From positions 1 to 56,401 of the forward strand of contig CACHHD010000005.1 of assembly GCA_902579605.1 (NCBI GenBank): a stretch of DNA of 56,401 nucleotides, given 5' to 3'. The stretch is from an uncultured Pelagibacteraceae bacterium (GTDB lineage: Bacteria > Pseudomonadota > Alphaproteobacteria > Pelagibacterales > Pelagibacteraceae). Below, piece after piece: positions 48,426 through 56,401 of the stretch. The notes beneath the pieces are model-generated. The model was not told the origin of the DNA, did not search any database, and was given only the letters and a program-made list of their open reading frames with translations. The translations under genes and the position numbers were made by a program. The first letter of the stretch is position 1, and each line of letters starts with the position of its first letter.

Positions 48426-49133
48426 ATGATAGGGATTTTAGGTGGCATGGGTACTCAAGCTGGTTTAGATTTTTCCACGAAGTTGGCAAAATTATATAGA
48501 GGGAAACTAGATCAAAAATACCCAATTTTCGTTTTATATAATAAGTCTGATGTGCCTAAAAGATTGAGTGACAAAAAAGTTTATAAAAAGGTTTATAGAA
48601 GTTTATACCAAGGTTGTGTTTTTTTACAAAAAAATAATTGTAAATTCATTACTATTCCATGTAATACTGCACATCATTGGTTCGATGATTTAAAAAAAAA
48701 CGTAAAAATTCCAATACTTAGTATGCCTAAAGAAGTATTTGCGTTTGCTAAAAAAAATTGCGCTCGTGGATCTAAAGTTGGAATTCTGGCAACTGAAAGT
48801 ACACTTAGTACTAAAATCTATCACAAATTTTTTGAAAAAAGATATAATTTAATTGAGCCAACACAAAACTTACAAAAAAGAAATGTAAATAAGTCTATTA
48901 ACTTCGTAAAAAAAGGTAAGGTGAAAGAGGCAGAAAAAGTAATTAAGCCAGTTATAAAATATCTTTTAAAAATGAAATGTAAAAAAATTATTCTTGCTTG
49001 CACTGAACTTCCTGTAGCCATATTTGCTTTTAAGTCTTTTAAAAAAGTAAAATCATCAAAAACTTTTTTTGATCCTAATTTAATTTTAGCAAAAGCAGCG
49101 ATGAAAAAATATAATTTAAAGGGCACTAAGTAG
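48426..49133 (+). CDS. Aspartate/glutamate racemase family protein
   Basis: Cofactor-independent racemases of this family use two cysteines. Both contexts are present in the 235-residue protein: PCNTAHHW (about residue 78) and LACTELPV (about residue 183), with the start GILGGMGTQAG. This is nearer to the aspartate racemase/YgeA group than to MurI. Whether it makes a cell-wall D-amino acid or acts on another substrate is open. Its 3' end overlaps a small ORF on the other strand. Confidence 0.9.
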   Translation: MIGILGGMGTQAGLDFSTKLAKLYRGKLDQKYPIFVLYNKSDVPKRLSDKKVYKKVYRSLYQGCVFLQKNNCKFITIPCNTAHHWFDDLKKNVKIPILSMPKEVFAFAKKNCARGSKVGILATESTLSTKIYHKFFEKRYNLIEPTQNLQKRNVNKSINFVKKGKVKEAEKVIKPVIKYLLKMKCKKIILACTELPVAIFAFKSFKKVKSSKTFFDPNLILAKAAMKKYNLKGTK

Positions 49134-52211: not shown

Positions 52212-52276
52212 TAAGTTATTTGACTACTAACAATAATCAAAGTCAATTGTAATTTAACTTTAGTTGACACCATATT

Positions 52277-54022
52277 TTATTGACCTAAAGCTTCTCTCGC
52301 CTGCTCTACTGTATAATTTGTACCATATTGTTGATTATAGGCAGCAACAGCAGAAGCAAAATCATCAAAGCCCATGCCTTGCATTGTAGCATCGAGATCT
52401 ACTGTCACTCCAGCAGCGCTAGCGGCAGCAATGGTATCAGCAACCTCTTGTAAACTTGACTGTGCTGCTGCAGCTAACTGTCCTGCATCAAAATCGGATA
52501 AAGTACCAGCTGCAAGTTGTTCGATAACATCCAAATTACCTTGATACGCCGAAGCATATTCTTCAACAGACCAATTGGCACCATACTGTGCATTAGCTAA
52601 ATCTGTTAAATCTGAATAATTATTAATATCTAAACCTCTCAGATCCCCTAGAGCTTGAGCAAAATCATCCAAAGTAAATGAAAAACTAAAACTTTCACTA
52701 GCTTGTGAGATTGTTTCCTGAATACCATCAAGGGACTCATTTGAAATTACGTCTTTAAAATCCTCTAAATCTAAAAGCTCTCTAAAGTTTTGAATTGCTA
52801 ACTGAGCTTTTACCTCCTCTATCTGGTCATCACTTAAATTTACTTCAATACCTGCCGCGTCTTTAACTTTAGTTGGAATAGGACTCTTCCAAGCATTTGC
52901 CCAATCACTTAATACCCATTTATTCATTATTTCTACAGATGCTAGCTGCATATTTAAAGACTCTAGTCCAACATCAAGATCTTTTCTATAAACTTCTAAT
53001 AATTTATTTACGGGTAACCCATTATCTTCAAGATTTAAAATATCAATTTGAATTTCATTAGATTTTTTGTTTTTATTTAATTTTATAAATTTTGTGATCT
53101 CTCCAAGAATTTTTAATTGATTTTGATCAAACTCACTAAAGTCAGCTTTTGATAAATCTTGCTCAAATTTTTTTGGTAAGTGATTTTTTTTTAAATCTTT
53201 AACAACAAAATTAGCTAATTTGAAACCACTAATTGATGCAGATATATTTTTTTCGTTGAAGGCTGGCAATTCATTTATAAGAGAACTTATAAGCTCGTAC
53301 TCTTTATATTTTTCACCTTTTTTAAGAGAATTATCTAATTTATTATAATTTTTACGAAATTCTTTTTTAAAGCCATTTTTGCTTAATCTCTGTTCTTGGT
53401 ATTTTTCAAGAGTTTTTCTTACATTAGTTATATTTTTTGAAATATTCTCATTTATTTTTAATTTTTCTTTCTCTAATTTTGATAGCTTCACTCTTGAATT
53501 TTCACTTTGGCTAAATAGTAAATGCATCGTATAGTAATAATCTAATGCCTTTTTTGGGTCGTCTTCTATTTGTAAACCAAGGGCTTCTCTCATTGTTTTT
53601 CTAGCTTGATTTAAATTATAAATTTTTTGAATATTTGTTTTTACAGATAAACTTGGATATTTGTCCTCAAAATTCTCTAATGTATATTTGCTTTCTTTTA
53701 GTTGTTGCATGTAAAAGAATTCAAAATATGCCATGCCCAACATCATTTGTCCTGGATATTTATTAAGAAGATGTTTTTGTTTAACGAAAATTTTTGATAT
53801 TCCTTCTTTTGACTTCTGAGATTTTGCGTAAAAATTATTTATATTTTTAGGAAATAGTCCATTTGGAGAATAATTAATTTTTTTATATTTTCCAATGTCT
53901 TTAAGATCCTCTAAAAATACACCCAACTCTCTCTCTTTTTCAGATCTTTCGCTGCTATAAATTTCAGTTAATACAAAAAAACTTATAAATGAAATTATCG
54001 CTAGTTTAGGCCAAAAATTCAT
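52277..54022 (-). CDS. Exported protein of unknown function with GC-rich C-terminal repeats
   Basis: I do not recognise this 581-residue protein. It has an N-terminal export signal or anchor (about residues 5-24), then a long Lys/Glu/Asn-rich helical region (to about 420), then an Ala/Asp/Gln-rich acidic C-terminal part. That part holds two copies of a repeat (about 430-497 and 523-581), aligned as SLDGIQETISQAS with SLQEVADTIAAAS, and NAQYGANWSVEEY with NQQYGTNYTVEQA. Start is ATG 54022; the longer frame begins inside a tRNA-like remnant. The repeat coding DNA is much richer in GC than the rest. Confidence 0.8.
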   Translation of the reverse strand: MNFWPKLAIISFISFFVLTEIYSSERSEKERELGVFLEDLKDIGKYKKINYSPNGLFPKNINNFYAKSQKSKEGISKIFVKQKHLLNKYPGQMMLGMAYFEFFYMQQLKESKYTLENFEDKYPSLSVKTNIQKIYNLNQARKTMREALGLQIEDDPKKALDYYYTMHLLFSQSENSRVKLSKLEKEKLKINENISKNITNVRKTLEKYQEQRLSKNGFKKEFRKNYNKLDNSLKKGEKYKEYELISSLINELPAFNEKNISASISGFKLANFVVKDLKKNHLPKKFEQDLSKADFSEFDQNQLKILGEITKFIKLNKNKKSNEIQIDILNLEDNGLPVNKLLEVYRKDLDVGLESLNMQLASVEIMNKWVLSDWANAWKSPIPTKVKDAAGIEVNLSDDQIEEVKAQLAIQNFRELLDLEDFKDVISNESLDGIQETISQASESFSFSFTLDDFAQALGDLRGLDINNYSDLTDLANAQYGANWSVEEYASAYQGNLDVIEQLAAGTLSDFDAGQLAAAAQSSLQEVADTIAAASAAGVTVDLDATMQGMGFDDFASAVAAYNQQYGTNYTVEQAREALGQ

Positions 54023-54068
54023 CCTATTAAATAAGCACAAAAAAAAACATTTGTAAATTTTAACTATT

Positions 54069-54117
54069 TGGTGCGGTCGGAGAGACTCGAACTCCAAAGG
54101 GCTCGATTAAATCTCAA
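54069..54117 (-). pseudogene. tRNA-Leu-like 3' end remnant (candidate attachment site)
   Basis: The minus strand ends GTTCGAG, CTCTCC, GACCGCACCA (54069-54089), a T-loop, partial T-stem and acceptor strand with CCA. A loop TTGAGAT with a GAG (Leu) anticodon sits at 54117-54111. A matching 5' acceptor GCGGTCG, D-arm and paired anticodon stem are missing. GTGCTCG at 54158 could pair imperfectly and gives 90 bases, but the other arms do not fold. It looks like a tRNA 3' duplicate left by integration, or a decayed gene. Confidence 0.5.
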
Positions 54118-54191
54118 CGTGAATAACACTTTTTCCAAGAGTAGACTGTAACGAGCACAATATCAACACAGTCAGAAAGGAAATCCATTTT

Positions 54192-54377
54192 TTATTTTAG
54201 CAGCCTTCTACCCACAAAAACAATTACTGCTAAACCAAGATATACAAAAGTAACCCAAGAAGGAAAATTAAAGTACCAACTGCTTGCTATGAAGATTACT
54301 ACAAATAAAGGTGTGTAAGGTATAAGTAAAATAGTCGAAACATTTGCTAAAAATTTATTTTTGCTCTCTTTTGCCAT
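54192..54377 (-). CDS. Small two-helix membrane protein
   Basis: A 61-residue protein with a charged start (MAKESKNKF), two hydrophobic segments (about residues 14-32 and 38-56) and a basic end (VGRRLLK). No known family is recognised. It follows the upstream exported protein by one base and is probably co-transcribed with it. Confidence 0.65.
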   Translation of the reverse strand: MAKESKNKFLANVSTILLIPYTPLFVVIFIASSWYFNFPSWVTFVYLGLAVIVFVGRRLLK

Positions 54378-54378
54378 G

Positions 54379-54978
54379 TTATTCTGAAATCGAATTTATA
54401 ATACTTATTAAATCTCTCTTTATTTTATTACAATTCTTTCTCTCACATCCTAGAGCTGCTGCAGTTAAACCACCTTTTGTTTGAAAATAATAAATATAAA
54501 AAAATTGGTTTTTAAATGGACCATCATGTTCCATATACAAATTTAAATTACGGTTAATTTCTTTAGCTTTAGTTTTGCAGTTATACTGCTTTAAATTTGG
54601 TTTATTATACATTTTTGAAAATATAGATTTCATTTCACTGCAAATCTCTTTCAAATCATAAGCAAAGTATTCTTTGATATTTCCGTTCATCACCATCATA
54701 TACATATTGTTTATAGCAGGATCCATAGCTTTGTTGGGAAAATAATACTCAATATTCATTTCTGTTTTGGTCATTCCAGCTAGAACATCATTTGTATATT
54801 CTTTATTCAATTCCGAACCGTCAAAATCTTTCAAAAGATCGTCTATGTTTTGATCTTGTAGAGCAGTGTAGTCAGATGGAACGTCTATAAAAAAGCCAAA
54901 TCTAGACCTAATTTCTTTAGAATATGCGCTTTCAATTATAAAGAAAGATATTAAGATCAAGTATAATTTTTTTATCAT
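54379..54978 (-). CDS. Exported protein of unknown function
   Basis: The 199-residue protein has a clear signal peptide (about residues 1-20, ending ESAYSKE) and no later membrane helix, so it is probably periplasmic. The first mature part (RFGFFIDVPSDYTAL) resembles the start of small periplasmic domains that follow signal peptides in other proteobacterial unknowns. Four Cys (near residues 108, 122, 179, 184 by estimate) could form two disulfides. Divergent from the 55.0 kb gene across 44 bases; upstream partner of the 61-residue membrane protein. Confidence 0.7.
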   Translation of the reverse strand: MIKKLYLILISFFIIESAYSKEIRSRFGFFIDVPSDYTALQDQNIDDLLKDFDGSELNKEYTNDVLAGMTKTEMNIEYYFPNKAMDPAINNMYMMVMNGNIKEYFAYDLKEICSEMKSIFSKMYNKPNLKQYNCKTKAKEINRNLNLYMEHDGPFKNQFFYIYYFQTKGGLTAAALGCERKNCNKIKRDLISIINSISE

Positions 54979-55022
54979 GCTGATATAGTATGTTAATTTC
55001 TGTGAATTAAAAGATTTTTATT

Positions 55023-55916
55023 ATGAAATTAGTAAAATTATCTCTTGTTTTAGCCTTTTTTAAACAAGTAAAAAATATTAAAAAATTTTTAATAATCATT
55101 AATGTTGGAATTTTCTTGTCCATATTTGCAACAACTGCAAGTTTAATAACTTTCTTTGTTGAGAAAAAAATTAACGATATTGAATTTGAAATATTAAATA
55201 CTCAATTAGAAATCAAAAATTACTCCGATCTTATATCCGAAATCACAAATTTAAAAGCAATGATTGTTCAGCTTATGAATAGCGAGAGAGATATAAACAC
55301 ATTATATGAGTATATATCTACACAACCTATTCCTGATGCATTGATTAGCGTTAATGACATATATCTTCCTGATTTGGTTGTGGAAGGTAGCAGAGACGAT
55401 TTTCAAGAAATAATAAACTTATTTGATGACAAAGAATTTGGATTAGACGTTCAAAGAGATGTTTTTTTAGAATTTTATGGAGAAGATTCTTATCAACTAA
55501 AAGAATTTGATAAAATAACACAAGAACTTGTAAATATAAAAAATTTTGATATTAAAAAATATCAAAGTTATTATAATAAAGTTTTTGATTTTAAACCCAT
55601 AGACTTGTCCGGTGAAATTAATGATTACACAACAATCAAAGATTTCAATAATCCAATTTATTTAGATTATTTAAAGATGTTTGAGATTTATGAATCTGCT
55701 ATTGTTTATACAAATCTTATGGAAGAGTTGTCATTTGATTTCAAGTTAGGTTTTGAGGGAATACTTCAAGAATTAAATAACGATTTAATACGTTATTCCA
55801 ATAATGAGAGAAATATCATTATATTTGCGTTTATTTTTCAGGTTATAATATTTTTAATCATTCAAATTTTTGAAATTACTTCCTTACAGAGAGAAATGAA
55901 AAATACAAAAATATGA
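55023..55916 (+). CDS. Membrane protein with two terminal helices and a large extracytoplasmic helical domain
   Basis: I do not recognise this 297-residue protein. It has an N-terminal helix (about residues 22-44), an acidic helical domain of about 215 residues with an initial coiled-coil stretch (EFEILNTQLEIKNYSDLISEITNLK region), and a C-terminal helix (about 265-285). The predicted topology is both ends in the cytoplasm with the domain in the periplasm. Its TGA overlaps the next ATG (ATGA). The layout recalls adapter or sensor-input proteins, but no signalling domain is attached. Confidence 0.7.
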   Translation: MKLVKLSLVLAFFKQVKNIKKFLIIINVGIFLSIFATTASLITFFVEKKINDIEFEILNTQLEIKNYSDLISEITNLKAMIVQLMNSERDINTLYEYISTQPIPDALISVNDIYLPDLVVEGSRDDFQEIINLFDDKEFGLDVQRDVFLEFYGEDSYQLKEFDKITQELVNIKNFDIKKYQSYYNKVFDFKPIDLSGEINDYTTIKDFNNPIYLDYLKMFEIYESAIVYTNLMEELSFDFKLGFEGILQELNNDLIRYSNNERNIIIFAFIFQVIIFLIIQIFEITSLQREMKNTKI

Positions 55917-56401
55917 GAAGAGGTAAATTAAACAATATAGCCTATAAATTAGTAATAGTTTCTGCAATTTTTACTGTCATTTCTTATGCGGCAGATCAGA
56001 TGGTAATTAGAAGTGAGGATAAAGTCAGGAATTTAAATGTAAACTATAATAATTTACAAGCTGAAATAAAATCGCTTGAAAGTCTTCAGCTAGCTTTGAG
56101 TAACATTGGCACTCAATCAATTTCTTTATTATCAAATTTAAAACAAAGAAACTTTTGGCTTAAAAATATAATATTTCAAAAAATTGAAGGTAAATCAATT
56201 AAAGAGAGTTTATCAGTAAGAAAAGTTGATCAAATAGATTTTGCAAATAATGTGTTATTTAACCTTTATCAATATCAAAAGCGAATTCAAGATCAGTCAA
56301 GTTCTATGAGTTATGAGTTTGCTAAAATAATCGAGACTAATCCTAAATTTTTTAGTGTAGAAAAATATTATATCAAAAATGTTAAAAAATTTGATGATTT
56401 G
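55913..56401 (+). CDS. Membrane-anchored coiled-coil protein, 3' end outside window
   Basis: A frame of 163 codons runs from ATG 55913 to the right edge without a stop. It begins MRRGKLNN, has one membrane helix (about residues 10-28), then a polar helical region (KVRNLNVNYNNLQAEIKSLES) of coiled-coil type. It is translationally coupled to the preceding gene and has a similar anchor-plus-helical-domain plan, so the two products may interact. Function unknown; the missing part may hold a recognisable domain. Confidence 0.7.
   Translation, partial: MRRGKLNNIAYKLVIVSAIFTVISYAADQMVIRSEDKVRNLNVNYNNLQAEIKSLESLQLALSNIGTQSISLLSNLKQRNFWLKNIIFQKIEGKSIKESLSVRKVDQIDFANNVLFNLYQYQKRIQDQSSSMSYEFAKIIETNPKFFSVEKYYIKNVKKFDDL

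Follow-up and report, generated by a model that had tools for sequence, protein, structure and literature searches.

A fused member of an apparently undescribed two-part protein family, putatively exported, in SAR11 bacteria

INTRODUCTION

SAR11 ranks among Earth's most abundant groups of bacteria, according to PMC7029224. In one SAR11 genome, a gene of 581 codons changes its base composition sharply within a single reading frame, on the way to a C terminus that carries an internal repeat. The gene lies on contig C5, whose whole length of 56,401 bases was analysed and is called the window below (the assembly comprises 29 contigs and 974,097 bases and is 80.5% complete). What produces such a step, and what might the encoded protein do? 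The initial annotation proposed an acquired or separately constrained module, for example a surface or binding domain of variable copy number, fused to an AT-rich exported protein.

RESULTS

Domain layout and internal repeat

The gene was delimited by its open reading frame and by its full-length relatives. Counted from ATG, the protein has 581 residues; an alternative ORF of 606 residues is the same frame extended to an upstream TTG. Its parts are as follows.

52277..54022, minus strand: the gene in question, 581 residues, with putative signal peptide, N-terminal domain, middle domain and C-terminal helical module
53954..54022, minus strand: putative signal peptide, residues 1–23, a lysine followed by a hydrophobic stretch, judged by eye
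53375..53962, minus strand: N-terminal domain, termed A, predicted to be mostly helical and elsewhere in SAR11 genomes a stand-alone protein
52691..53374, minus strand: middle domain, with a counterpart near the start of a long second protein, termed B, where A is a separate gene (genomes G389 and G114)
52280..52690, minus strand: C-terminal module of 137 residues, here lysine-free, Ala-rich, with eight predicted helices and a Gly-Gln end

By eye, the N terminus of the window protein and of its relatives looks like a typical Sec signal peptide, making export putative, and residues 3–16 form a helix in the AlphaFold2 (AF2) model. No further membrane segment was seen by eye behind it. The window protein contains no cysteine, and its net charge per 100 residues is about +7 in the A domain, −3 in the middle domain and −13 in the module. 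Neither an outer-membrane or cell-wall anchor nor a secretion partner was recognised for it, and it lacks the GGxGxD nonapeptide repeats of RTX/type I secretion.

The module contains two similar blocks on either side of an Ala-rich spacer.

52547..52642, minus strand: repeat copy 1, module residues 17–48, from internal alignment
52385..52546, minus strand: Ala-rich spacer, GC peak of 0.457, from G+C counts
52289..52384, minus strand: repeat copy 2, module residues 103–134, from internal alignment

The core given by the initial annotation, N-x-Q-Y-G-x-N-[WY]-[ST]-V-E, is matched exactly by NAQYGANWSVE and NQQYGTNYTVE. Two C-terminal repeats are indeed present, alike over about 32 ungapped residues (33 had been given), but the unit of 60–68 residues proposed for them is wrong, the spacing being 86 residues. 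Specifically, the blocks reach a Smith-Waterman score of 54 against a shuffle mean of 26.4, with 3 of 5000 shuffles scoring as high, and hhalign comparisons between the module halves give 22.9 and 24.4, whereas 60 column shuffles reach no more than 17.1. Of the 13 sequences aligned, 10 show the repeat clearly, its score being equalled by 5 or fewer of 1000 shuffles; in the other three it is weak or lost, with 39 (L012), 341 (L010) and 465 (L011) of 1000 shuffles reaching that score. At the DNA level, no tandem repeat was detected in the module, which holds a single 15-nt near-match, 303 bases apart. Nor does copy number vary as had been supposed: both blocks align without large gaps in 15 of 15 sequences and have merely diverged in L010, L011 and L012.

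Origin of the GC step

The G+C counts first reported, 32, 27 and 9 per 60 in the lines starting at 52381, 52441 and 53401, were reproduced exactly, and the shift is sharp, from 0.269 before the module to 0.406 in the last 137 residues. The description of a GC-rich repeat does not hold, however: the peak sits in the Ala-rich spacer (0.457), and the copies themselves have 0.354 (copy 1) and 0.417 (copy 2). Had an AT-rich host gene captured a GC-rich module of foreign origin and varying copy number, an unusual composition and a genuine internal repeat would be natural, and the GC of the module is reached by none of 508 stretches of 137 codons drawn from the other genes of the window.

Codon positions speak against such an origin. 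GC at positions 1, 2 and 3 is 0.384, 0.237 and 0.185 before the module and 0.591, 0.431 and 0.197 within it, so that the third position (GC3) is flat; GC3 is 0.187 in the window's other genes and is at least as high as that of the module in 192 of the 508 stretches. Furthermore, a calculation from the module's own amino acids and the codon usage of the window predicts a GC of 0.407, against 0.406 observed, and the same calculation predicts 0.268 for the protein before the module, against 0.269 observed. There is no lysine among the 137 module residues, compared with 13.8% before the module, and Ala plus Gly make up 28% compared with 7%. All 16 relatives measured share the step (0.375–0.418 in the module versus 0.239–0.281 before it), and their GC3 is higher in the module in 3 and lower in 13. 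Because GC3 is flat, composition predicts the shift and the relatives share it, the step reflects the protein itself and not where the DNA came from. The tail's amino acids bring about the GC-rich stretch as a side effect. Thus, even a strong GC step inside a gene of an AT-rich genome can stem wholly from amino-acid composition, and GC3 shows so at once.

Conservation and predicted structure of the module

A contig search with six patterns, one of them derived from the module itself, yielded 15 relative loci, 14 of which are full length over the query and one of which (L014) is truncated at a contig end. All 15 are from Pelagibacteraceae or Candidatus Pelagibacter, that is, SAR11. Full-length relatives with the module number 16 besides the window protein, 14 of nearly equal length and two extended at the N terminus, and the module with both blocks is present in all 17 proteins. 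In the two longer relatives, of 672 and 713 residues (L028 and L029, also numbered L154 and L155), the module is kept and a SHOCT-like stretch lies near the N terminus. This stretch resembles the SHOCT domain (PF09851) with 27.9 bits in L028, at a curated cut-off of 27, and stays below the cut-off in L029 (23.9), whereas PF09851 was not reported in the window protein.

Judged by the alignments, the module is the best conserved part of the protein. Among 15 aligned proteins (the window protein and 14 relatives), mean pairwise identity is 0.618 over residues 20–215, 0.628 over residues 216–443 and 0.769 over the module, and median dN/dS is 0.091, 0.078 and 0.047, respectively, from the 29 to 30 of 38 close pairs that gave usable values. 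The final Gly-Gln is invariant in the alignment, with one Asn added behind it in L011.

AF2 modelled the whole protein with a mean pLDDT of 67.5. Averaged over ten residues, pLDDT is 74–93 across residues 31–300, except for 66 at 251–260, then 31–51 across residues 351–520, and 73–83 in the last 40 residues. Folded alone, the module forms eight helices with a pLDDT of 84.5 and a pTM of 0.74; two of the five models reach 84 and three just 58–64. In the predicted fold, the module can be read as three helix-turn-helix units, at module residues 25–36/42–61, 66–75/80–92 and 111–122/128–134, the outer two being the repeats described above. In Foldseek, neither the whole model nor the module had a match at E ≤ 0.001. 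The best VIA Z score, 3.8 to a mini-haemoglobin, is within the range that may reflect just a common arrangement.

These results divide the original proposal. That the module is separately constrained is borne out, in that the C terminus is predicted to form a separate domain and the A domain is elsewhere joined to quite different C-terminal regions. That it was acquired is contradicted by the 16 relatives, which share the module, both blocks and the GC shift, the outcome that the initial annotation had itself named as refuting its view. A profile search with the module alone, the check suggested at the outset, covered 397 genomes of the order. It gave 11 matches, each within this protein save one in a fragment of it at a contig edge, and there were none in 328 other genomes of a phylum sample. 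As the module is the most conserved part, has flat GC3 and is confined to this protein, a recent acquisition or a change of copy number is unsupported. Two more distant fused proteins do carry the N-terminal part without the module, as an acquisition would allow; taken together, we regard that origin as very improbable.

Fused and split forms of the family

The fetched loci comprise 17 fused proteins with the module, two fused proteins without it (865 and 915 residues) and 31 free A ORFs, L014 being left out. The two fused proteins without the module match the window protein just to about residue 319. Directly downstream of the free A, an ORF of at least 150 residues was found in 29 of 31 cases. 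When every frame is started at its first ATG, the gap from A to this second gene is −41 to +3 in 27 of the 29 pairs and +83 in the other two, and the genes overlap in 21. In G389, profile positions 22–213 of the window protein fall on a 295-residue frame and positions 230–403 on an adjoining frame of 1486 residues; in G114, positions 71–213 and 220–400 fall on adjoining frames of 295 and 1483 residues. Since the alignment of the window protein splits over two adjoining frames in this way, the fused and split forms are homologous, the homology between the middle domain and B resting on these two genomes.

The tails of the family are of several types: an Ala-rich helical domain (in the window), coiled-coil-like stretches, 36-residue tandem repeats and Pro/Gly-rich ends. 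The last 300 bases of the second genes have a GC of 0.353–0.663 in 27 of 29 cases, the exceptions being L152 (0.257) and L068 (0.331, cut off by the end of the stretch). In four B genes in which the last and first 300 bases were compared, GC1 and GC2 are higher at the end in all four, and GC3 goes up in three (0.14 to 0.33, 0.16 to 0.27 and 0.17 to 0.22) and down in one (0.20 to 0.15). Given the rise of GC3 in three of the four, the GC content of those tails is mainly, though perhaps not entirely, due to composition.

Several B proteins are of note in themselves. One group with Pro/Gly-rich ends (L063, L073, L137–L144, L146, L147, L149 and L150) has genes for 767–840 residues with a GC of 0.44–0.47, and the last 300 bases reach 0.55–0.66 in an order that is AT-rich. 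A cysteine pair ends 7 of the 31 C termini that lack the module (29 B proteins and two fused ones); it lies at or next to the C terminus in L062, L065, L066, L067, L070, L071 and L072, for example as GPCGEPSC, on tails that otherwise differ, and could be a disulfide or a processing signal. A B protein from the window's own genus (L064:2185–3831) consists in part of about nine copies of a 36-residue repeat. Its kinship to the module is borderline: hhalign gives a score of 18.2, reached by none of 100 column shuffles, at a probability of just 3%, but the module HMM scores the protein no better than shuffled sequence. Pfam rows with high scores for L064 were treated as artefacts of the tandem repeats, since no stretch passes singly.

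Distribution and database searches

Three queries, the whole protein (A1), the module (A2) and the N-terminal domain (A3), were run against genome sets; these overlap with the loci of the contig search and are not independent of them. SAR11 genomes in the survey tables are about 0.5–1.4 Mb in size, many of them incomplete. Among 397 genomes of the order Pelagibacterales, A1 and A3 each occur in 33 and A2 in 11, every query being confined to 2 of 13 genera. Of the 33 genomes with A3, 4 belong to the genus of the window and 29 to a single second genus within that family; two of the 33 encode three A domains. Within the window's genus (37 genomes in one set, many incomplete), the fused form with the module was found solely in the window's genome. 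In a class sample of 327 genomes, A3 matched the window's own genome alone, as did A2 in the phylum sample of 329. By these sequence searches, the family is sporadic within Pelagibacterales and, in the samples covered, restricted to that order.

Neither the window protein nor its profiles had a credible match in Pfam, PHROGs, NCBIfam, PADLOC or PDB sequences. In the literature searched, a set with a minority of subscription papers and no bioRxiv preprints, no title or abstract start among the matches listed describes the family. The family of A domain and module thus appears undescribed in the databases and literature covered.

A conserved front with exchangeable tails, found also in a two-gene form, recalls polymorphic toxin systems, and the protein might be a secreted effector or toxin in which A serves as carrier and the variable tail of B as the active end. 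Weak pointers in this direction are SmhA, the sole PDB sequence match of the A profile (E 0.74), and SmhB, at rank 31 of the fold search (E 4.0). However, no credible toxin, immunity or defence family matches the window protein (no PADLOC anti-phage defence family at E ≤ 0.1), and many tails are of low complexity, rich in Pro, Gly or Ala, unlike a catalytic domain. The PADLOC rows obtained for one B protein (L060) were discarded, being confined to a coiled-coil-like stretch. We consider a toxin role improbable.

Insertion site at tRNA-Leu

Next to the gene lies a fragment of a tRNA gene, and the gene is absent from four near relatives at this place.

54067..54094, minus strand: 28 nt identical to the 3′ end of tRNA-Leu(GAG), of which contig C1 of the same genome has the intact gene
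52257..54066, no strand: extra DNA compared with four near relatives, containing solely the gene in question

Thirteen relatives of the genus share, at 93–98% identity, a gene for a 2-hydroxyacid dehydrogenase, presumably formate-dehydrogenase-like (FDH-like). In four of them (L124–L127), tRNA-Leu(GAG) directly adjoins this gene, giving an empty site; in the other nine, the tRNA is not in the fetched 8.7–9.5 kb. Similarity to L124–L127 ends at 52248–52263 of the window and restarts on C1 at 2303–2325, by the tRNA. Between these break points lie the gene in question, the 28-nt tRNA copy, what remains of C5 and the beginning of C1; the two contig ends may adjoin, open frames running off both. 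The tRNA copy and the absence of this DNA from the four relatives suggest a two-part, tRNA-linked island that extends from the FDH-like gene to tRNA-Leu and measures at least about 6 kb. It resembles the outcome of two neighbouring insertions at a single tRNA, of which the inner contains this gene alone. A further copy of the tRNA end, which a simple two-event model might predict, was not found on the FDH side (at best 12 of 25 positions match, against a background of up to 14). No integrase was seen by eye in 54096–56401 or in C1:1–2324, between which the contig break falls.

Elsewhere in the putative island, two adjacent ORFs at 55023–55916 and 55913–56401 resemble membrane proteins and, by eye, each other; for the first, neither Pfam nor NCBIfam gave anything at E ≤ 0.01. 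On the other side, a few kb from the gene, a gene at 48426–49133 resembles Asp/Glu racemases, and its relative directly adjoins a free A/B pair in two genomes of the same genus (L063 and L137).

The position of the window gene differs from that of other fused loci. In 11 of the 17 fused-module loci, at least one of two neighbour families is also in the fetched stretch: c2, which we take to be CinA-like, or c3, which we take to be gamma-glutamylcyclotransferase-like. The split pair of L071 adjoins the same c2 and c3, so that one region can house either the fused or the split form. Close behind the gene, ARAGORN identified an intact tRNA-Met in L010 and a tmRNA in L011. A T-arm pattern for tRNA fragments hit none of 17 loci, but it overlooked both of the RNA genes just named as well and is hence uninformative.

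The tRNA-Leu copy beside the gene, the empty site in four relatives and the structural RNA genes of L010 and L011 are what would be expected of cargo or a structural gene of a phage-derived element integrated at tRNA-Leu. Pelagiphages are indeed described in PMC6811365 as integrating at a tRNA-Leu; the site given there, however, is tRNA-Leu(TAG), and the one here is tRNA-Leu(GAG). Moreover, ARAGORN found no tRNA or tmRNA gene at 14 of the 16 relatives' loci scanned, and PHROGs yielded no match to the window protein at E ≤ 0.001. No relative was present in 50,697 phage records or in plasmid records, and two short-pattern scans of viral contigs gave 42 and 24 candidate stretches, none of which was confirmed. 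A phage origin is unlikely on this evidence.

DISCUSSION

The window gene is best read as the one-gene form of an apparently undescribed two-part SAR11 family that would be exported and act in the cell envelope or at the cell surface, a reading to which we give about an even chance. In part A, a putative signal peptide would be followed by a domain made up mostly of helices. Part B would comprise the middle domain and a C-terminal region that varies by family type and is here acidic, lysine-free, Ala-rich and helical. Both parts would cross the inner membrane through Sec, as the signal peptide seen by eye suggests, and, as their genes are fused or overlapping, A and B may form one cell-envelope assembly, a single chain in the fused members. 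The tail would then be the exposed, functionally divergent part, possibly serving at the cell surface in binding or as a structural, fibre-like element.

The main rival of this envelope or surface reading is a purely periplasmic role, in which the protein would be a scaffold or a chaperone-like envelope protein, never exposed, whose acidic Ala-rich tail docks another envelope protein. A putative signal peptide without a further membrane segment would suit such a protein, as would the compact predicted module and its strong purifying selection, with little of the fast change expected of a surface antigen. Sporadic presence, variable positions and very different tails fit exposed accessory proteins better, and we find an exclusively periplasmic role doubtful, though it deserves to be taken seriously.

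Returning to the two-part envelope or surface family, a broader picture can be drawn tentatively. Streamlined SAR11 cells might possess a modular exported-fibre system, made of a conserved A and interchangeable B tails, confined to Pelagibacterales in the samples searched, encoded by fused or overlapping genes at several variable positions in up to three copies per genome, and diversifying the surface under phage predation or for attachment. In any case, a probably exported family with one conserved half, several tails and variable positions is a candidate for surface differences between SAR11 cells.

The principle of a conserved front with a variable tail is of an already known kind. Compared with the A/B pairs of SAR11 (for example L060, L067 and L071), the window protein has a homologous A, and the start of B matches its middle domain in two genomes, but the genes of the pairs are separate, usually overlapping, and the module HMM does not score above shuffle level in the 13 proteins compared. 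The largest of the hypervariable, surface-related SAR11 regions in PMC2217521 is presented there as mainly containing LPS-type genes, and the A-domain family does not figure in the passages considered; like those regions, however, the family described here occupies variable genome positions, some of them near structural RNA genes.
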